NCBI GenBank assembly: GCA_964036155.1 | Contig: OZ038423.1 | Location: 59,597,249 to 59,661,248, forward strand | Source of the DNA: Diploscapter coronatus | Lineage: Eukaryota; Nematoda; Chromadorea; Rhabditida; Rhabditidae | Length of the DNA: 64,000 nucleotides | Reading direction: 5' to 3' | Shown: piece after piece, positions 5,896 to 59,815 of the stretch | How the letters are laid out: every line of letters begins with the position of its first letter | Position numbering within the stretch: position 1 is the stretch's first letter | Notes under the pieces: generated by a model | Told to the model about the DNA's origin: nothing | Databases searched by the model: none | Seen by the model: only the letters and a program-made list of their open reading frames with translations | Program-made: the position numbers and the translations under genes

Positions 5896-8800
5896 TTAGA
5901 AAACTCTTAGGCTGACAATCAAGGTAAAGATCATCGAAAGAAGATAAGTTATCGGTGAGGTGTCACTTGTAGTCGACATAATCATGGAGTTAGTTGTTGC
6001 TGAGTTGCTGCCCAGGGCTGTGCAATCTGAATTTTTAAATGCCGCACAGGTTTTTCAACTCTCCCCACCTTGCAATCGTCCGACACAGACGTTAGTGTCG
6101 ACGCTCAGAATAATTTGCTGAGTATTGCAGATGAATCCTGAAACGTTTTGACTTTCTTAGAAAACTGAGCAGAGGAATTTACCTCCGACTTGAGATCCAC
6201 AAGTTTGAGTATAGACATTTTCCATACAGGTGATCGCTTGATCGTATGATGAGCAGAATGCGGAGCTAGTCGTGTCGTTAATATTGCTGTAGCAATTGGT
6301 GATATTTGCCTGGTCCAGATTGGTCAAGTTGTGAAGGCACAAGAAGTTGTCCTGAGCTAGGCTCTTCGCGGGTCCGCACTCGTAGTTGAATCTGAATTAT
6401 CGTCTTTGTTGGATTTAACCAATTCTATCTACCTGTAGTAGGTCTCCCTGAATCTCCAGGCATCGTCGAAGGGCGTTCCGAACCATTCGAACCAAGAGAT
6501 CGGCACGATACAATTGTCGAAGTTCACGTTCGCATTGTTCAAGCAGGACGTCAGCGCATTTTGCCATCCACACTGCTTGTTGAAACCGTCAACTCCGGTG
6601 TTGAACAGATTGACCAGAGAATTGACGAAGGTTCCAGTAGCTGATAAGTTACCGAATTGATATGGTTGTTGAATGTTGAAATTCGTGTAGTAGTTGTTGA
6701 AGCACACCTTGGCAGCATTGTACATATCTGCAGGACAGTCAGCGTAAACAGGCACTGAGAATCGCGTGCAATCAGGAAGCTGGCCTCCGCAGGCAGCCGT
6801 ATTCACAGTGAGAGCTAGCTCTTCGACATTACAAATGTAGCCTCTGACGCCGATGCCACAAGATTTATCGTAGATTCGTTCAAGACATTCGATAGTTCTG
6901 TCGTATCCTCTGCAGAACTCTCCGTCGTTATCGGTATTGTTGATGAATCGGTAGCATGACGTTACATTGTCGCGCTCGAGGAAGGTGCTATTCCTGATAC
7001 AATTCCAGTTAGCTCGTACGGTTTGTATGGCTGGTCCACAATTGTAGTTTTCCACATAATAATTGGTTCTGAAGTTGTACGAATCGTCCCAAGTCGAGAG
7101 AAACCAGTCCATCCACGTGTCGGGTCGAATGCATACGTCCATTGACATGTTGATTCTTCGAAGGCACTGATTTAGGGTCTGTTGCCATCCACAAGTCATA
7201 TTCAATGCTGCTTGTCCATAGTTTTGGTAGATTTGTCGTCGTTCCCACATGTAACTGCCTGGTACACTTCCGTTTCCAAAGACGAATGGAGCCTGATTCA
7301 TGTTGAAGTTTCGATAGAAGGCTGCGAAGCACTCTTTGGCTGCTCGGTAATGCTCAGGCAAGCAGATAGCTGTGGAGTCTTCAGAGCAATCCCTCAGCCT
7401 TCCGGTGCATGCATCGGTATTCAACTAAAAATTAAGCTTTTCCTATTTTTAAAATTAAGGTTACTTGAAGAGCCATGTTTTCAATGGTACAAGTGTATCC
7501 TCGGACGTCCCATCTGAAATTATAGCGCTCTAATAATTGCTAATTTTTGATCAAAAATAGTACCCGCAATCTCTTGTCAGAATTCGTTCCAGACACCTTG
7601 TACCATTGTTGAACGCGTGGCAAAATTGAGAAGCATCCCTTGTATCGTTCAATTGTGCGTAACAATCGATGTACTCTTGTTGTTGCCTAAGTTTGTTGGT
7701 AACGTTTACCATTTTGGTAGCGTTATTTTCTCTTACTTCATGGTATAGTTCATCAGGCAGTTATAGTTGTCTTGGACCACTGAATTTGTGTTTTAATGGT
7801 TTAGACTACAGAAATCTCAATTGCAGAGAACAATAGATCAGCAACATGGCCGGGCGGTAGTCGTTTACGACTCATTAAAATCAATTTTCGCCAAAATGTT
7901 TCGTTCAATGATTAAGATCGGCAATAAAAGCCGCTATTCATATTTGGAAATTATTACTCATTTACAATCACATTGCCAAGCTTTCTAATTTGATGCAGAT
8001 AATAATGGCGATTTTATGCGTTTCTGATTTGTACATGATTTTGAAGAATAAGCGAAAATTGTCACGATTCGTTTTCGTTTTGATACAGAATTAAAGTTCA
8101 GGTTCGGGATCATTTCAAAGAAAAGTGATTTTGAAATTTACGAACCTCTGTTTGCCGGACCACACTGGTACTCTAAAATTAAAATATAATTATGTTAAAA
8201 GTAAATACTGCATACCTTGAATATAATAACTCGTTCTGAAGTTGAAGGAGTCATCGTAAGGCGATCCAAACCATTCTCTCATCGAGTATGGATTAATGCA
8301 ATTGTCATAGTTGATGTAGTACGAATTCAGACAATTAGTGAGCGTGAATTGTCTCCTTAATTAGCATAGTTATTTAATCACCCTCTAATTATCTCCATTT
8401 AGTTACTGGCAAATCTGATCCCATCCTGATCGTCCTTGGCTCATCAACATGTCCATCTCAGCCTTAGAGTAACTGTTCGGGGTGGTGTTATTTCCGAAGA
8501 TGTAAGGGGCAGTGAGACCGAAGCTCTTGTAGAACGTGTCGAAGCACATTTTAGCGTTCTGAAAGGTTATTAACATCATTTTTTAAACTATAACATCATA
8601 TTTACATTGTACATTTCGGGTCGGCACTCGGCGTAAATGGGTACCGCGAAGAGTGAACAGTCAGGCATATTGCCGGCGCATTGAGCAGTGTTGACCTAAA
8701 TTTTTACCGATTTGCAATGCAATCGATTTTTAATGATCTCATACCGACATTCCAAGCTCTTCAATGTTGCAAATGTAGCCCCGCACGCCAGGACCACACT

Positions 8801-11165
8801 CCCTAACATAGACTTCCTCTAAACACCTGATTGTTCTATCATATTCCGGACAGAGATTTGCGTTATTGGTGTTATTCAGGAATCGGTAGCAATCTTGGAT
8901 TTGTTGACTGTCTTTGATGGTGCTGTTGTACAAGCATTGGAAGTTGACTCGAACTTGTTCCCTAGCTGGTCCGCAGTTATAATTGTGGATGTAGAAGTCG
9001 GTTCGGAAATTTGAAGAATCTGGAAAAGTCGCGAGAAACCAGTCCATCCACGAGCCTGGATTAGCGCAGAAGTCGAGGTTGATGTCGTGGCGCCGGAGAC
9101 ATTCGTTCAACTCAGATTGCCAGCTGAAAGACGTCATTTATTTTTCGATAACGCCATTTTGTAGTCTTTTAGAATGACGTCATAAAACTTACCCGCAAGT
9201 CTGATTCAACGCCGCTTCACCCGTACTGTTGAACAGCTGGCTTCGAGCGTACATGTAACTTCCCGGCGTTGAGGAGTTTCCGAAGACGTAAGGAGTAGAA
9301 ATTCCGAAGTGGTCGTAGAACGCTTTGAAGCATTGCTTGGTTTCCTCAAGTTTCGGAAACATTTTTGGGAACATTCTTTGGGGCATTTTCTTACATTGTA
9401 GGATCTAGTGTTGCACTCTGGCATAGCATCTTCCACACAGTCGCGAAGTCTTCCGGTACAAACGTTAGTGTTGACCTAAAATTTATGCTAATTCTTAGGA
9501 GTCTTCTAAGAATCGTACCATTAATGCGATCTCTTCAACCATACAGATGTATCCTCTTGTATCGCGTCTGAAATACTTTTTCTATTGCCACCCCTTCATT
9601 CTTTTATAGGCTTTAAAAATGACGTCATTGTTAAAATCTGACAATAATGCTTAAACTCAGTTTTAATTTTTGCGGGTGTTAAATTTGATACCCGCAATCT
9701 CTGGTGATGATGGATTCTAGGCATCTTGTCGAATTATCGAAAGCCAGGCAAAATTCGGTTCCGCTTTGAATGTCTCCATTCAGAACATTGTAGCAATTCA
9801 TGATAGCGTCCTGATCTCTGAAAATGTTCATTTTTGGAATCGTTTCGGCTTTAACGCTCAATATTTGAAATTATACCTCATACTATCATTAAGCAAGCAC
9901 TGCCAGTTATTGATAACGGCTAAAATTAAAATTTAATTTTTAAACTTCTACCAATTGTTTATTTTTTATCCTTAACTATTTAATGGCCCTCTTCATTAAC
10001 GATTTTGGATTGGCAACTTTTATGGGTCGTTAAATTAGTCTTAACATGGCGATTTTATCACCAGGGAGCTTAAACTGCTGAGAGGATGGGTAATTTTGTG
10101 ATTTGTTAAATGAAACTCGAATATTTTCTAAGTATACATAAGGCATGGTATTATATTTAGTAATGTAGGACTCTTCTATTTTTGGCATCCTAGATCCTGA
10201 TCACCTTCTAATCTTTCCACCAAGTTTACAAAAGGCACGGTTTGTGCGTCCAAGATTTTACGATCATTCGCCGAGCGTATTTGGCAGCGGCAATTTTGCA
10301 TCAAAATTCAGCATCAACAATGATAATTATCAATTTTTGGTCGAGATAATTTTAGGACTGGCTATTTTTTCGCTTTCAAGGACAACTTTCAAATTTTAGA
10401 AATTGAATTTAAGTTTAGGCTTAAAAAGAATTTGTGATTCTATCTTTGGATTTCAAGGGAATTTTTGCAATTTAACAATTAAACTGAAACTTCATACTTC
10501 GGTAGGCCGGGCCACATTGATAGTTTGTAATGTAGTAGTTAGTCCTGAAATAATAAGTTTAAAAATCAGCATAATTAAATTTGACTGACCTAAATTCAAC
10601 AGAGTCGTCATCAGCGGATCCAAACCAATCCTTGTACGAATTTTGCGTTATGCAAGCATCGAAGCTAACATTCGCCGCATTCAAGCAATTAGTCAGTGTA
10701 AATTGCCAACTAAAGATTGGCGCTTTGAAAAATATCGTCAATTTTTAGAGTTTACCTGCACATTTGGTTCCATCCATCGATGCCCTGTTGTATCAGCAAA
10801 TTCATGATCGCTTGGTTGAAGCTTCCTAGAATTTAACAGATGATAGCAAGTTATAAATTGCTAATTATAAATTTTACCTGGAGTGGTATTGTTTCCGAAC
10901 ACATAGGGTGTGTTAATGTTGAAATTGTTCATGTACGTTTGGAAGCAATTTTTCGTGGTCTTAATTTAAATTTATGTACACTAAGTCTGGGTTTAACTTT
11001 ACCTGATACGAGTTTGTATCGCACGTTGGGGCATCTGGTAAGACGATTAAAGACTTTCCGAATTGTAGAGACTCTAAAATTATCAATTTGAGAAATCAGA
11101 AATTTGTAAAAATTACCGCAAATACAACAAACTAAAACTAGAGCCGAATAAAATTTGGCACCCAT
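5896..11165 (-). CDS. secreted/GPI-type protein with five tandem cysteine-rich units
   Basis: Twenty-three exons join in phase into about 1,057 residues. Exon 1 (11117-11165) encodes a signal peptide, MGAKFYSALVLVCCICG. Five repeats of about 190-210 residues follow. Each carries CF..FY..F....PY.FGN, then C.WQ..L..CL....V..D.CI....W..WFG....DS..FR..YY, then CGPA, then CY..N.......FC...D.T..CLE......CG...RGY.C. Two joins span long introns (10497-9920 and 8145-7780) and keep phase, so this is one gene and not several. The protein ends in a Thr/Ser-rich stretch and a hydrophobic tail (TYLLSMIFTLIVSLRVF), suggesting a GPI signal or membrane anchor. N-glycosylation sites (NxT/S) are frequent. The cysteine pattern recalls the nematode DUF19/T20D4.11-like extracellular family, but I cannot confirm that. 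The role is probably extracellular, possibly intestinal given upstream TGATAA sites. Confidence 0.85.
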
Positions 11166-52214: not shown

Positions 52215-53590
52215 ATTCCACCCCAAATTCCGGGGTAACCTTGATTTTCTTTTCAAAAATTTCTGTAGATACCCCACTCAATTTTCCTAGCAATATGTAC
52301 GGATACCTTATCCCCCTTACCCATTATTATTTTGGTGCAGACTTTTCGTAGACTTATTACTGTACCAAACGAGAATTTTTAGTTTAACTTCCAGAAATTT
52401 TAGGCTCATTTGTAAAATTCACCTCTCGATTAGAAAAACCTCCTTTCAAAGGGTGAATTTAATAAATGAGTGGAAATTTTTGTTAGTTTTTTCGGCTTGT
52501 TGTAAAAACCATACACTAGCAAAATAGGGATAAGAGTAGGAACTCGGTAGGTTAGGCTAACTTTTCTAGAAATACTCTGCACACATGATGCTCATCATTT
52601 TGAGACCAAGCATAGCCTACCTTTCCCTACCCCTTCTCTTGTATACAGTCATCGAGATTTTAAAAGTGCACGGTTTTTTATAAGAAGTCGTTTTTCAATC
52701 GAGGATTTTCTGAATCCATTCGTCACACACATATGAGTAATTTGACGTTTCAGTCAATTATGGATTTTTTGAAATTATGCTTTTTGTCGTAAGCTTACTC
52801 GTTCTGGTTCCACACATACATCTTTTTCGATGCACTTTTAGTCGTCTTTTTCCATATTCAGGTTTTTCTATGATTGTCCTTGAAAAAGTCTTCTATAAAA
52901 TGCTATTTTTATTTAGTTTTATTTGAAAAATATAAGGTATGGTCTATATTTCCTAAGAAAAATGATATTATTTTATTCCATATTTATGAGATCAAAAATC
53001 CTAGAGAATTTCGTATTTGACAGATTTTTTCAGTAAGAAGTGAATTTTGATGGCCAAACAGAATAAATTTTGAAGAAAGAAAATAATAGTTCAATTGGAC
53101 TTGATTCGTTTTCAGTTTTTCAGCGTGCTAAAAGACTGAGAAACTTTTGTGAAGACACCTTCGAAAGATTACCCTCCCTGAGGGCTCCAGATTGAAAAAG
53201 CTGAAAATCCTATTTTACGTTTAGGAATTTTTCTTTCGAAAATTTCTAAAGTGCGGTAAAATTTAATGTTAGAATGAAGCTTAGAATACGTAGAATGTCT
53301 GAGGTTTTTGGAGTCATTTGGAAACATTTCAAGTTAGAGATACAAAACTGTAAAGAAAATTATGACGGGTAGGTCGCAGAGCAATCTTGACTTAAGTCCT
53401 CCCTAGGTTTGCACGTTCTTAAGCACCCGGTAAAGTGACTGACATCATCATTTCATCTACTGCTGTTGTGCCTGCTTAATGATCTTTCAAGTCTGATCAG
53501 CACAACATAAGTTTATGAAATTCAGAACTTTCATTTTTCCACAATCTAGATCCGTTCAATTCTACTTCATTCATACTTGCTAGACTCTAG
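52215..53590. other. 3' region of atlastin / intergenic
   Basis: A+T-rich. Holds one copy of the dispersed GGTAGGTCGC...CCTAGG repeat at 53367-53408. No coding exon seen. Confidence 0.4.
53367..53408 (+). repeat. dispersed repeat, GGTAGGTC...CCTAGG family, copy 3
   Basis: Reads GGGTAGGTCGCAGAG then TCCTCCCTAGG, matching the copies at 19402-19445 and 28429-28473 at both ends. Confidence 0.45.
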
Positions 53591-53726
53591 CAGAGGTGGG
53601 CCGAGAGTCCCGGTCCCGAATTTGGAAGTTTCGATCTTTTTGGCGATCCCGATTCCGGTGGTTCGAGAAATTTTTGTCTCGATCCCGATTTTTTTTTTTA
53701 AAAGTCACTCCCGGCCCACCCCTTGT
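53591..53726. mobile_element. GC-rich MITE-like element, same family as 20016-20095
   Basis: Left end CAGAGGTGGGCCGAGAGT; right-end complement CAAGGGGTGGGCCGGGAGT. The interior has CCCGGTCCCG and CGATCCCGATT as in the 80-bp element. No clear target duplication, so it is probably older. It lies directly upstream of a candidate exon. Confidence 0.6.
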
Positions 53727-53735
53727 TCGCACAGC

Positions 53736-53851
53736 CATACAGGCTCTGGACGACAATTCCTCCCAGACAGACAACCAGCTGATATCGAATACAACTCCTG
53801 CTATTTGCAGTTCAAGACGCTCAGTTCCTACAACCACAAGGCTGCACAGTC
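53736..53851 (+). other. possible alternative last exon of atlastin
   Basis: An acceptor (TTCGCACAG) is followed by an open stretch beginning AIQALDDNSSQTDNQLISNT, which would join atlastin exon 18 exactly in phase in place of exon 19. A GTATG donor closes it, and a further candidate exon begins after GATTTCAG near 54130. The composition is hydrophilic Ser/Thr/Gln-rich, like an atlastin tail. The acceptor lies about ten bases past the right end of a MITE. There is no proof of transcription. Confidence 0.3.
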
Positions 53852-53949
53852 GTATGTTGTTTTTTATTTAATTCTGGGGTGTGTCCAGTCCAGTGCGAAA
53901 TTACTATTTTGCCGATCAGCACTAGTTTATTTGCACTGTTAATATTTCT

Positions 53950-55035
53950 GATCTTACCCATCAATTTCATAGCTTTTATTGGTGTCATGATTTATAATAA
54001 AATGACCCATTTTCCAAATATTCTAACCTGAGATTGGTTAATTTCGAAGATAACTTTGACTTTACTACTTTACTACCGTCTATCTATAATTTTATCTCTG
54101 AAAAGCGAGTGAAATTCCTTGATTTCAGTTGAGTGCAATCAAGAACGCGACAAGGAGTGGAATGGAATACGATTCCTCTTCTGCTTCAGCCATTTGATAA
54201 CGATGAAACAATGCATTGGTATTCTCAATAAATAACCAACTAAAAATAAGAGTTTCATCGATTTCATATTGTGACACCATGTAATGTCAGACAAAAATAT
54301 ATAGAAAATTGTTAGAGATCGATTTGTCAGAAAAGAAGAAATGGTGTGATAGTAGAAATCTAACTGAGATACATATGTGTTGAACTAATCATAATTGAAA
54401 TGAGACAGACTACAAATTATGGGTTTTATGATGAGAATTCTTACGAACCTTTGGATCTTACTTTATAAGGCTTAGTTCATAGTTCGTGGGCTTTCTTGGA
54501 AAATAGTATGACTCAGACACAAAGCCCGCGAACCACGTCCTTCAATCCGCTGTGAGGAAGAACATTTGTTGCACTCTGTAGATTTCTAATTTTCGATTTT
54601 CCACTTGAAATATGCGTTGATTTCTTTACATAGGGAATTCGTGTGATTTAGTTGGTTTCAAGTAATCAAGCTTTAGCACGATTTCTGTTTCATCAATTGT
54701 ATTTGGTGAAGAAAGTTATGCCAGCTAGATTAGTCATTCACAATAATCCTTACAAATTGAAAACATTTCTCTTAATAACTATAAAGCTTACAACTAATTG
54801 AGATGCAGTAATCTAAGCTATGACAGAATGAGTTCCTAATAAGTATATTTCGTCATTCCTATCGAAAACTATTTCAAAGAATACTTATTTCAGTTGTAAC
54901 TATTTCTCATCACTTTTGAATGTCTTCGAGGGTTGTCTGTATCATGTTTATTGGAATATTTAACAATAGTCGAATAAAGATAAAATTCATAAAATATAGT
55001 ATACCGAATAAAAGGGTACATGGTATTAAACTGCA
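53950..55035. other. intergenic
   Basis: A+T-rich 3' flank of the Hsp70-Kelch gene. Possible terminal exon sequence of the atlastin variant near 54130-54230, with an AATAAATAA at about 54226. Otherwise nothing recognised. Confidence 0.4.
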
Positions 55036-58000
55036 TTATTCCAAGTTTAGTGTTCCGACTTCTCGCCATCTATTTGTTTGTGGATCGTATTCCTCGATTG
55101 AATTACAAAGATTTCCAGAGTTTTGAAATCTAAGTTAACAAATATTTCGTATAAAGATATGCCAAATCTCAGCTCACCCTCCGATTGCATACAATTTCCC
55201 GTTAGCGACAATGAGCGAATGAGCCTTTCTTCCATAATTCATATCAGCGATCTCAGAAATTCGACTGTCAACTGGAGCTGAGGGGTCGAAACACAGACAG
55301 GATTTTAATGTTAATATCCTTAATCTCGCTTCACCTCTACTATATTTATAATCATAACTAAATACATAATTATACATTATTTATCATACAACATTAACGA
55401 CCTCACTCCTCCAGCTATGTAAATGTTTCCATTTAACGATGCAACTTCGAAACAAATTAGTCTTTCTGGAATCTCTCCAATTTCAACCCATTCTCGCTCA
55501 TCATCTGATAATCGGTATATCTTTCTATTATCAATAACTGAATATTCATAATTACAATAATGAATATGCTATAATGTGACCGTATAAAATTCCATCGCAT
55601 GCTATTGTTTGAGCCAATCTAATTGGAAGAGGAAAAGCAGGTCCTGATTGCCATTTTCCATCTATTAAAACCTGAATAGATTATTTAATGGACTTTCATT
55701 CGATCTTCTTACATCAACACGATTCGTATCTTTCTCTGTTTTAGGATCCTCTCCACCCAAATAATATAATTTCTCTTTGAAATAAGCCACAGATGCACAT
55801 TTACGCCATTCAGGAGGATCTGGCCCTGTAAAATTCTTTGAATCAATCATTCATGGATTTGTTGACCAGACCTCTTGAAATTTGTCGAATATTCAAATCA
55901 TATATTTCAAATGATTTATTTGCACCATCAATTCCAAAAATCTGAAACCTAAGAAATTAGTCAAAATAACGAACATAGGGAGTTTACTTTATTCTGTGTA
56001 GTTGCTACTTCATAGGTAGAATAATTTCTATAAAACTTGGCAATATTTTCGGCAGAATAATTCCGCGAGTCAAACAGACAAATTCTTCTCTCCCAACTAT
56101 CATTCTTATTCTTATAATCCACTAAAAATTTCAAGTAAAACGAATTCATTACCTTTTATAACATTTTACTTACGATAGACCAGAGTTTTATTTTCATTGA
56201 CTTTTAAAGAACTATCAAACTCCTGTCTTAATGCATCTATAGAACTGTTAATCAAAGGCAATGGATTTCCTTTCTAAATATTTAATTATTTTCTTTTGAA
56301 AATATCTTCATACTTCAATGGCATTAGCAACAATTGCTGCTCCGTAAGCAACGGCTTCGTCTGGATTTATATCGAATTGAATTTTGGAATTACGAAATTT
56401 GTTCTTTATATTCTGTTCAATTTTGGGTATTCTTGTCGATCCGCCAACCAAAATCTAATTATTAAAAATAAATTAGATTTTGAGATTTATATTTATAATT
56501 TTTACCACATGATCTATTTTCTCTGGTGTTAGCTGTTCCATATTCAAAGCTCGATCAACGAATGTCATCGCTCTTTCAAATAAGTCGCTGCACAATTCAT
56601 TGAATTTCTCCTTGGTTAATCTGACATTAATTTCGAGATCATCGTTTATATCCAGCTAAATTATAAAATAATAATAATCTTATTAAATTACTATTCTTAC
56701 ATGAACATTAACAGGATGTTGCGAGAATGACAACGATTCTTTTGCTTCTCGGCACTCAATTCTCAATCTCTTTAGTAGTTTAGGTTTTTTGTAAATATCA
56801 AAATCTGGAGATGATTTTTTGAATTCATCAATCACGAATTTCATAATTCGACTATCCAAGTCTTGTCCTCCTAAATTTGGTATTTATGATTTACATTTAC
56901 AAAACCAAAAATCAACCTAAATGAGCATCGCCAGTAATGGCCTTAACTTCGAAATTTTTGTTCTTAATTTCAGCAATGCTTATGTCGAGGGTACCTTAGA
57001 TTAAAACTATTTTAGAATTTCAAAATTAAAAAAAAATCTTAAAACCTCCTCCAAGATCAAAAACAAGAAGTTTCGAGTTTCCTAATTTCTTCTTCTCATT
57101 ATAAGCTATGGCAGCAGCCGTAGGTTCTTGCAACAAACACTTCAATTTCAGCCCGGCTAATTCAATTGCTTTCTTGGTTGCCGCGATTTGGTCAGGATGG
57201 AACATTGCTGGTACAGTAACAACCGCTTCTGTCACTTTTTGGCCATTGTATTTCTGAAAATGGAGAAAATAAAGAATTGTGTATGATAAGAATGTAAAAG
57301 AATAACATTTAGAGTGTAGAACAAGAAACTTTAGCTTTCGTAATTTGTACGGTAAATATTATCTACGTTTCTATTTTGCAACATTTTCTCAAACTAAAAG
57401 AAAACTTACTTCTGCACGAGCTTTCAAACTCTTCAAAATCTCGGCGGAAACTTCTTCTGGTCGGACAAATCTTTCATTTCGAGTTCCTTTATTCAAAATA
57501 TATCCAGCACAATTCTAAATTTCTTGATTAATTTGGCTAAAAATGAATTTTTCTACATTTTTGGTGACTGCATTGAATGTCCATAATTGACGATCTTCAG
57601 CAATGGGCAAATCAACCAGAAATTTCCAGCCGATCAAACGTTTTGAATCTAAAAATTCTTAGTTTCAGAAAAATCAGACATATTCCAAAAGTTGTATTAT
57701 CGTATTAGTACAATTTACGAGTTCTTTGAGATTTTTGAGCTCAATTATGAGTAACACTGACAGGTTAACGATATGTGGATGCAAACACAACAGTTTGTAC
57801 CGAGTTGCCCTAGAATTATCTAAACTTGCCATAAAGAATATTCGCCATGTCGGTGTCACACTTCAAAGCTGGATTTCCAACCAGAGTCTCGCCATTGTTA
57901 AATGCCACTACTGAAGGAATTGTTCGCTTGCCTAAAATTTTAGAATATTCTTAGAAAATAATAAAAACCGACCATCGTCAGAAATAATTACAACAGGATT

Positions 58001-58063
58001 TCCGTTTACAATTACAGAAACGCACGAATATGTCGTTCCCAAGTCGATGCCGATATAGACCAT
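55036..58063 (-). CDS. Hsp70 ATPase domain fused to Kelch propeller
   Basis: Seventeen exons join in phase into 682 residues. Residues 1-379 (exons 1-9) are a complete Hsp70 nucleotide-binding domain: [11 protein letters not shown] (phosphate 1), [51 protein letters not shown] (phosphate 2), [14 protein letters not shown] (adenosine) and [18 protein letters not shown]. The usual linker and substrate-binding domain are absent. Residues 380-457 are unique, Asn/Tyr-rich ([20 protein letters not shown]). Residues 458-682 are Kelch repeats with the GG doublets LYYLGG, IYIAGG, LYAIGG and the last blade [18 protein letters not shown]. About four full blades and one partial are seen, fewer than the usual six. 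Exon 2 ends in a GC donor (GCAAGT at 57824-57829) and one intron is only 31 nt (55525-55555). Inference: an ATP-switched protein that recognises partners through the propeller. Joining within single exon chains and the absence of any stop or second start at the junction argue against two genes. Confidence 0.88.
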
Positions 58064-59815
58064 TTTTATTCTTTAATTTTTTAAAATAAAAAGTTTGTAT
58101 TGATTTAGAAAATAAATCATATATTCATGCGTAAGTGAATAAAAAATCAATAATCACTAGGAGCAAGAAGGCAAGCTTTCATTGAATGAGAATTGATAAG
58201 AGAATAGTACTTCGAATATTTTGTGAGGAGAAATTTTATCACAAAAGGAATAATTTTGGCAAATGATTAGGAATAAACAAATAAAGGAATTTTTGATTGG
58301 TTGAACAATAATCTGCTCAATTTCGAATGCCATCTCGCATTCAAAAGAAATAAGCTCAGAAGGAAGAGAGAGTAAGAAGCTTTAATGAATATTAAAAGCA
58401 GGGCTGTTTGAAAATTGAACTTTAACTTAAATCGGAATATGAAAATGAGGAGAAATGAATATTGAAAAGTAAACAGAACTTTTCTTCTTAAAATAATTAT
58501 TTCGAAGTGAATGTAATCCTATTTAGGCGACATGTCAAGTTGAGATTCCGTTTCGAAAATATCCAAATTGAAGCTGAAAGTAAGTGAGGAATAAAAGGAA
58601 AAATGATCATTCATGGAAGACGAGAATTGAGAACTGAACGAGAAGGGTAAAGAATTTGATAAGTGGATCTTTGGGTCACTTACTCGGTATTTTCTGTATC
58701 TTTTCATGCACTATTTCTCCCTTTCCTCGCTCTCCAACGCGACATTCTGTCATTTCGTAATTTACAGGTTGCCCTTTCATGCTTAAAATGATGAAAAATA
58801 AAATGCAGTCACTAATATAAAATATCGACAACGAAGACCAGTCTTTTAGAGTTTCGCTGTTATTTTCTGGATTGCAACACATACACATGCTTTGGCTTAT
58901 CTTAAGCTCATCATAGTCTCTCTACGTAAGTGTCTTTGCATATGAGATGCGATCCAATGGTCAGAGTCTTCTTCTCTCTCCTTCCTTTAGAACTTCCAAG
59001 CTTCATCCTTTCCCAGGAAAGGCAATCTATTTTTCTTTTCCATCTCTTTTATTCCTTTGTTCTTTCCTTATCTTTTCTTCACATTCTGCTCACTTTCGAA
59101 TTCAATTGAACTATGCGCGGGGCTAAAAGCACCACGCATTTGCACACATTTTTGGAAGCTTTTAAGATATACGTTTCAGAAATCTTCCCACTTTCTTAAA
59201 ACTTTAGAAAATTTCAAGAAACTTTCCAAAATTCACTTTAATTATCTTCTCTAATTTGGAAGTTTTATAAAGCTCCTTGAAATTTGTCATATTTTGATCG
59301 TTGAGACTTTATGAAATTTTTATTTTTATTCATTTTTTAGAAAAGAAAAAGTTCTTAAATTTCAGGTCGAATTTACAAATTCCGGGTCAAAATTCGAGAA
59401 AATGCGAAATCCCACCCTCTAAATTCAATCATGCAACGGGGATAATTTAATATTTCTGCGGTGGATTTTGGAGATCCGATTTCTGACATTTTTGGGATGG
59501 AAAACATGCCGCTGGCCGACTTTATTCAGGTATTTTAAATATCGATTTTTTAAATTAAAAAAAATATCTTTCATAATTCTTTTCTTACTTAAAATTTCTA
59601 TTTCTACTTCAATTTTGCCACATTTTAATCCCAAATTTAGATTTATTTGTCTTTATTCTACTAGAAATTTGATTTTATCTTCTTTTAAATATTACTTTAT
59701 TTTATATTATTATTTTTATTTTCAATTCGGTTCAAATTATTTATTTTTCATACCTCGTGAAAACCGGCTCATAGTTTACAAAATGACATTTAAAAATCAT
59801 ATCGTAGATGGAAGA
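58064..59815. other. intergenic / Hsp70-Kelch upstream region
   Basis: A+T-rich. I looked for arrays of GAA/TTC heat-shock elements near the start and found none convincing. A CTATTTCTC motif lies near 58710. Some plus-strand frames around 59468-59899 have no splice or domain support. Confidence 0.4.

Follow-up and report, generated by a model that had tools for sequence, protein, structure and literature searches.

An Hsp70 nucleotide-binding domain joined to a Kelch propeller in Diploscapter coronatus, with signs of a large and diversifying family

We confirmed by sequence analysis that a gene of the nematode Diploscapter coronatus encodes an Hsp70 nucleotide-binding domain (NBD) fused to a Kelch propeller. 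The reading that we favour, and whose chances we regard as evenly balanced, is that the gene belongs to a large Diploscapter family in which a constant, apparently ATPase-competent NBD would carry a diversifying Kelch recognition surface. The gene occupies 58063-55036 on the minus strand of the window, by which we mean the whole stretch of 64,000 nucleotides that was analysed, and its 17 exons code for 684 amino acids from start to stop codon. A sequence-only reading of the same DNA had proposed that the NBD runs in one phase-consistent exon chain into the Kelch part and that the substrate module of Hsp70 had been swapped. Both proposals held. The Hsp70 motifs quoted there were found on the minus strand and in phase, Pfam detected both domains in the 17-exon model, and the HSP70 profile stopped at position 374 of 599, with the Kelch propeller following in the same frame. 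The features of the gene and its flanks are as follows.

58491..58722, minus strand: upstream block, common to several Kelch genes without an NBD in the fetched piece (81-88% identity)
58064..58393, minus strand: 5' flank, putative promoter, wholly or partly common to other NBD copies (about 73-82% identity)
55036..58063, minus strand: whole gene, 17 exons, 684 aa (gene model, spliced alignment)
56314..58063, minus strand: exons 1-9, Hsp70 NBD, residues 1-379 (Pfam and PDB matches)
57649..57829, minus strand: intron 2, GC-AG; GC donors occur in 10 of 336 introns of 24 aligned copies
56274..56313, minus strand: intron 9, 40 nt, phase 0, module boundary
56174..56273, minus strand: exon 10, residues 380-412 (KGNPLPLIN...), a replacement linker that lacks the canonical DLLLLDV pattern
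55036..56121, minus strand: exons 11-17, predicted six-bladed KLHL-type Kelch propeller, residues 413-684 (Pfam and PDB matches, KLHL alignment; fold via a D. pachys relative, P0001)
54867..54957, minus strand: 3' block common to many copies, with AATAAA at 54952-54947 as putative poly(A) signal

The 16 introns were AT-rich and spanned 40-181 nt; 15 were of the GT-AG type and intron 2 was GC-AG. Our own spliced aligner recovered the 16 introns from the gene DNA with no stops and no frameshifts, a consistency check, since its query was the gene model itself. Pfam HSP70 matched residues 4-377 at 4e-111 and Kelch_1 matched two stretches of the C-terminal part at 1.2e-19. In the PDB sequence search, Hsp70 ATPase domains were closest to residues 2-377, and designed and natural Kelch propellers were closest to the C-terminal part, whose first strand starts inside exon 10. 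The coverage of the HSP70 profile indicated that the peptide-binding domain is absent, the protein lacks an EEVD end, and neither BTB nor BACK was among the Pfam matches of the gene. When the window was searched by tblastn with the protein of this gene and nine D. pachys proteins, all 58 matches fell within the gene. Elsewhere in the window, long open frames on the minus strand at 6429-7424 and 8739-9137 contain cysteine-rich units that look alike by eye; Pfam gave no match for the frame at 6429-7424.

The assembly that we scanned comprises 169.7 Mb in three contigs, the two large ones being named C1 and C2 here. The gene DNA matched nine further places from the NBD through the Kelch part with 77-83% identity, and at 24 fetched loci, this gene counted, NBD and Kelch stood in one spliced alignment. 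As both parts recur at other loci, chance is excluded, and so is a misassembly joining two genes, the objection that the sequence-only reading had raised against itself. No frameshift or stop was found in 18 of the 24 copies, while six carried one or the other; a chimeric alignment with two stops (C2:19406497) was excluded from the 24-copy counts. Pfam recognised both domains in all three of the other copies that were tested, out of six. From the fetched loci we obtained 85 aligned pieces, of which seven were classed as canonical Hsp70 loci for their low identity. Forty pieces were Kelch without NBD and nine were NBD without Kelch, numbers to be read with the knowledge that single-domain pieces were often truncated where a fetched stretch ended and that some Kelch pieces were second units after an NBD-Kelch copy. 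Searches with single exons reached both large contigs: the best 150 of 1,856 first-look candidates for exon 13 all matched, and so did the best 150 of 328 for exon 5, so that the counts given here understate the family. At twelve places units were closely joined, across gaps of 3-118 bases, and at two of these the joint came immediately after an NBD-Kelch copy, which suggests that chains of propellers may exist.

In six of the nine NBD-only pieces (C1:27273812, C1:43450414, C1:64867718, C2:50981788, C2:55918987 and C2:65936440) exon 9 was followed by a stretch similar to the C-terminal tail of D. pachys P0119. This points to the P0119-like tail as another C-terminal partner of this NBD.

HSP70 and Kelch occur together in five annotated D. 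pachys proteins, the outcome of the proteome search that the sequence-only reading had suggested. Among the 91 matches of the Kelch part, seven had Pfam HSP70 and four of these also Kelch, all from D. pachys; the fifth protein, P0098, came from the NBD search. The matches listed included 23 D. pachys proteins, of which 21 matched the NBD and 16 the Kelch part, and exon matches to D. pachys proteins reached 100% over short stretches and were mostly lower. Pfam assigned a kinase domain, HSP70 and Kelch to P0003. Beyond Diploscapter, the fusion was found neither among the 91 Kelch-part matches nor among the best 120 of 7,996 NBD matches. A further query, residues 372-610 of P0098, returned only itself among 348 candidates and missed its D. 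pachys kin too, which makes it a weak test.

The kinase part of another D. pachys protein, P0045, had 39 matches in the assembly, 27 of them nearly full-length and in a single frame (for example C1:60186369-60187166 and C2:20629086-20629919), and some lay shortly upstream of Kelch copies on the same strand, about 0.5 kb at C1:60185842. On inspection by eye, several D. pachys WR25 models, P0101, P0103, P0110, P0111 and P0045 among them, seemed to leave out exons or to translate a Kelch exon in a different frame at the same position. GC-AG introns may have caused this, and the Kelch ends of these models look truncated.

To characterise the ATPase half, we compared 30 NBD copies, among them some with lesions and some that are NBD-only, with 85 canonical Hsp70s, the top NBD-search matches. 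Residue columns were located by alignment and are given in what we take to be HSPA8 numbering. All tested positions were invariant or nearly so in the canonical proteins. D10, T13, Y15, K71, E175, D199 and D206 were present in all 30 copies and T204 in 28. The tested positions for coupling and J-protein contact fared unevenly: P147 was kept in 30, K159 in 29 and T177 in 25 copies, whereas R155 and N174 occurred in none, R171 in two and D152 in three, each of these four being found in 85 of 85 canonical Hsp70s. This gene has Cys at the R171 position, a J-domain contact. The adenosine-site pair was also altered, with E268 replaced by R, K or Q in all 30 copies and R272 by E in 29. We take DnaK R151, R167 and D148 to be the equivalents of R155, R171 and D152. 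Passages in PMC6843406 and PMC13012618 report these DnaK residues as coupling or J-domain contact residues, and R167 is the J-domain contact arginine in a passage of PMC13012618. The canonical hydrophobic interdomain linker pattern was found in 0 of 24 copies vs 69 of 82 canonical Hsp70s, and the linker of the copies was mostly PLIN-like. In D. pachys P0002 the ATP site itself is degenerate.

We concluded that the NBD is apparently ATPase-competent and that, as far as sequence can tell, the canonical linker and most of the tested coupling and J-protein residues are lost, though P147, K159 and mostly T177 stay. The sequence-only reading had suggested that nucleotide state could gate the propeller. 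A simple transfer of Hsp70's own gating was not supported by the comparison, given the linker counts and the replacement of several coupling and J-contact residues in nearly all copies. Loss of the coupling residues makes the classical route less likely, and ATP gating of the propeller, if there is any, probably takes a route other than Hsp70's own.

Selection was estimated from pairwise counting (NG86, piN/piS), in which the pairs are non-independent and recombination may distort the counts. The median omega of the NBD was 0.21 (40 pairs with dS<1) and that of the Kelch part about 0.60 (99 pairs). Against this gene, NBD omega was 0.07-0.25 wherever dS was computable, the largest dS being near saturation. 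We regard the NBD as constrained, with an omega of about 0.2 by these counts. The synonymous divergence of the two halves was uncorrelated (Spearman -0.08, p 0.39; 105 pairs of 15 lesion-free copies), NBD dS ranging from 0.07 to saturation and Kelch dS from 0.11 to 1.27. C2:76720600 and C2:77011901 diverge by 0.13 in exon 1, by 0.00-0.06 across exons 2-9 and by 0.17-0.25 across exons 10-17. The contrast runs the other way between this gene and C2:9331784, where exons 10 and 11 have diverged to the same extent as the NBD. Because dS is uncorrelated and steps at the exon-9/10 boundary, the modules seem to have been exchanged between copies. A topological proof of exchange was attempted and failed: the Kelch tree was poorly resolved and the AU test left the NBD clade unrejected (p 0.165), so that the case for exchange is built on dS together with a single clear breakpoint.

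The Kelch half was examined by way of D. pachys relatives. P0001 aligned with KLHL proteins over six Kelch blades in blade register; it is without the end of blade 6, which is present in this gene. The AlphaFold model of P0001 has a good Kelch half, with block pLDDT values of 75-97 from residue 281 on and a weaker blade 1 at 53-73, and a poor, partial NBD. Foldseek placed the Kelch model with designed propellers, the nearest natural folds being KLHL20, KLHL17, KLHL3, KLHL12 and Keap1. The NBD was usable in the AlphaFold model of P0098, whose identity to the best-matching Hsp70 ATPase structures was 38-42%, and the Kelch half was poor. Through the P0001 model, the Kelch part of this gene is predicted to be a six-bladed KLHL-type propeller.

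Variation in the propeller was followed at the two residues after the arginine position of a blade (R+1/R+2) in blades 2-6, which gives 10 sites in 53 Kelch copies; these sites were picked after a first look at variability, the blades were aligned by eye, and three of the five arginine anchor positions are non-Arg in this gene. Mean entropy at R+1/R+2 was 2.91, vs 0.76 elsewhere outside the post-GG loops (Mann-Whitney p 1.8e-7). The piN/piS ratio was 1.52 (site bootstrap 1.21-1.98) vs 0.51 (0.42-0.60) for the rest. The post-GG loops, which read ID in two blades, had an entropy of 1.90 and a piN/piS of 0.91 (0.70-1.17). When the anchors were shifted from -20 to +20, entropy was lower at every other offset, and the entropy contrast held both in 18 NBD-Kelch copies and in 35 other Kelch copies. 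We take R+1/R+2 to correspond to Keap1 Ser363, Asn414/Arg415, Ser508, Ser555 and Ser602. Ser363, Arg415, Ser508, Ser555 and Ser602 are reported as ligand contacts in a passage of PMC6891428. By our alignment, Kelch variation thus peaks at positions presumably equivalent to Keap1 ligand contacts.

The locus was also compared between the large contigs, which were treated as homologous chromosomes on the strength of matching flanks and of canonical Hsp70 loci that seem to occur in pairs. On C1, the sequences flanking the gene have counterparts with 87-94% identity. The points 53494 and 58900, which lie 5.4 kb apart in the window, are 24.6 kb apart on C1 (C1:63676116-63700696). There, two Kelch units follow each other in tandem, on the same strand, beside one flank, and an NBD exon with 59% identity lies near the other. 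By this comparison the haplotypes differ at the locus, a single gene in the window facing 24.6 kb on C1.

Outside the coding part, the upstream block at 58491..58722 recurred in two NBD copies as well (79-81% identity). A simple exact pattern scan of the 937 bases upstream of this gene found no heat-shock element of the form TTCnnGAA or GAAnnTTC, and heat-shock control of the gene was dropped as a candidate. Downstream lies a repeat of about 1.1 kb (window 53725-54843, an extent taken from one copy). Its sampled part, 53725-54500, has 38 other places with 83-94% identity, many of them near Kelch copies; clear terminal repeats were looked for and none were seen. The C1 counterpart of the interval 53494-54876 holds only about 190 bases, and the repeat is therefore probably an insertion on C2.

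Several other explanations have to be weighed against a diversifying recognition family. Production of the NBD and the Kelch part as two products, either because intron 9 is retained or because they are neighbouring genes, is in our estimate very improbable. Intron 9 opens with GTATGA, so that a transcript retaining it would gain a Val codon and a stop, ending the protein just past exon 9; D. pachys P0104 does end just beyond the NBD-Kelch boundary, and the single-domain pieces (nine NBD only, 40 Kelch without NBD, in the same alignment) fit as well. Yet a 40-nt intron leaves little room for the start of a second gene, the intron stands at the same residue and in the same phase in 23 of 24 copies, and the D. 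pachys models P0001, P0002 and P0098 read through the boundary. Spread without function, in which duplication and mobile DNA multiply the modules, many copies decay and Kelch variation reflects relaxed constraint, we judge quite improbable. It would account for copies dispersed over both large contigs, for lesions in six of 24 copies and for a repeat family near many Kelch copies; against it stand the low NBD omega in comparisons with this gene and the conserved introns, and under relaxed constraint one would not expect a piN/piS greater than 1 at ten defined sites alongside 0.51 for the remainder.

KLHL Kelch domains act as substrate adaptors, and the propeller might likewise select targets, for example for a ubiquitin ligase, with the NBD as a plain dimerisation or docking scaffold replacing BTB. 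The KLHL-like propeller agrees with such a role, as do the kinase, HSP70 and Kelch of P0003 and the Kelch residues that follow the kinase domain in P0045 (by BLAST; Pfam shows the kinase only). The absence of BTB and BACK from the Pfam matches speaks against it, and the main catalytic residues, kept in 30 of 30 copies, would be needless for a plain scaffold; we find this explanation rather unlikely. A stress chaperone is also unlikely. The copies would then be heat or stress Hsp70s in which Kelch replaces the peptide-binding domain for fixed clients and copy number provides thermotolerance, and PMC6872716, in the part available to us, does describe a 59-gene Diploscapter Hsp70 cluster with positive selection on its root branch and ties Hsp70 expansion to heat tolerance. 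The altered linker and the several altered coupling and J-contact positions point the other way, as does the lack of heat-shock elements upstream of this one gene, and variation on the binding face is unexpected for fixed clients.

In the recognition family that we favour, the propeller of each copy would bind its own, different target, and the NBD would act as a nucleotide-dependent switch, a scaffold or a docking unit outside the usual J-protein cycle, with modules being exchanged between copies. Diversifying variation on the propeller face suggests changing targets, and the diversity would most likely serve their recognition, as in defence or genetic conflict, rather than general folding. 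A more far-reaching version, which we offer tentatively and consider doubtful, would give the Hsp70 ATPase the role of constant chain in a combinatorial system of recognition, with hypervariable propellers swapped at one intron, a J-protein-free ATP switch, haplotype-specific repertoires, and Kelch also placed on kinases and in strings of propellers.

The Hsp70 expansion of Diploscapter was already known; the family size, the interchangeable modules and the hypervariable propeller face seem to go beyond the sequence-only reading. The 'Cluster III' Hsp70s of Diploscapter, 59 genes with positive selection in the part of PMC6872716 available to us, share with the present family the genus, a divergent Hsp70 expansion and evidence of positive selection, and are probably the same gene group. 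The word 'kelch' is absent from the main text of that paper, and a Kelch fusion, module exchange or a hypervariable face was not met in the part available. A term search of the main text of the D. coronatus genome paper (PMC5483258) finds neither kelch nor Hsp70. The sequence-only reading had stated that no Hsp70-Kelch protein was described. Our search of the open-licence literature, judged by title and the start of the abstract, agrees in that no paper on such a fusion was found, although D. pachys has unnamed entries that combine the two domains.

With canonical cytosolic Hsp70/HSPA8 and DnaK the gene has in common the NBD fold and the main catalytic residues. It differs in lacking the substrate-binding domain, the canonical linker and EEVD, and R171, R155 and D152 are mostly lost in the copies. 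Few proteins are as conserved as Hsp70, whose NBD is generally regarded as bound to a single type of substrate domain and to J-proteins. HSPA13 (Stch) and HSPA12 have Hsp70-like NBDs without a classical substrate-binding domain; to our knowledge they have neither a Kelch propeller nor a large variable repertoire. The KLHL/Keap1 propellers share the six blades, the blade register and the fold of the relative P0001, and the variable sites found here are presumably equivalent to Keap1 ligand contacts, whereas BTB and BACK are absent here and the propeller is carried by an Hsp70 ATPase domain. The MATH and F-box adaptor families of nematodes likewise combine a constant part with a fast-evolving recognition part in many copies. 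They are named as Caenorhabditis expansions in a passage of PMC6872716. Their constant part is a ubiquitin-ligase adaptor, in contrast to the ATPase found here. Here selection has preserved the engine and shed much of the coupling, and in many copies it has added another kind of binding domain, one that diversifies fast. Should the propellers prove to bind distinct targets, the family would amount to a recognition repertoire assembled on a chaperone ATPase and would offer a natural experiment on what an Hsp70 ATPase can drive in the absence of its customary partners.
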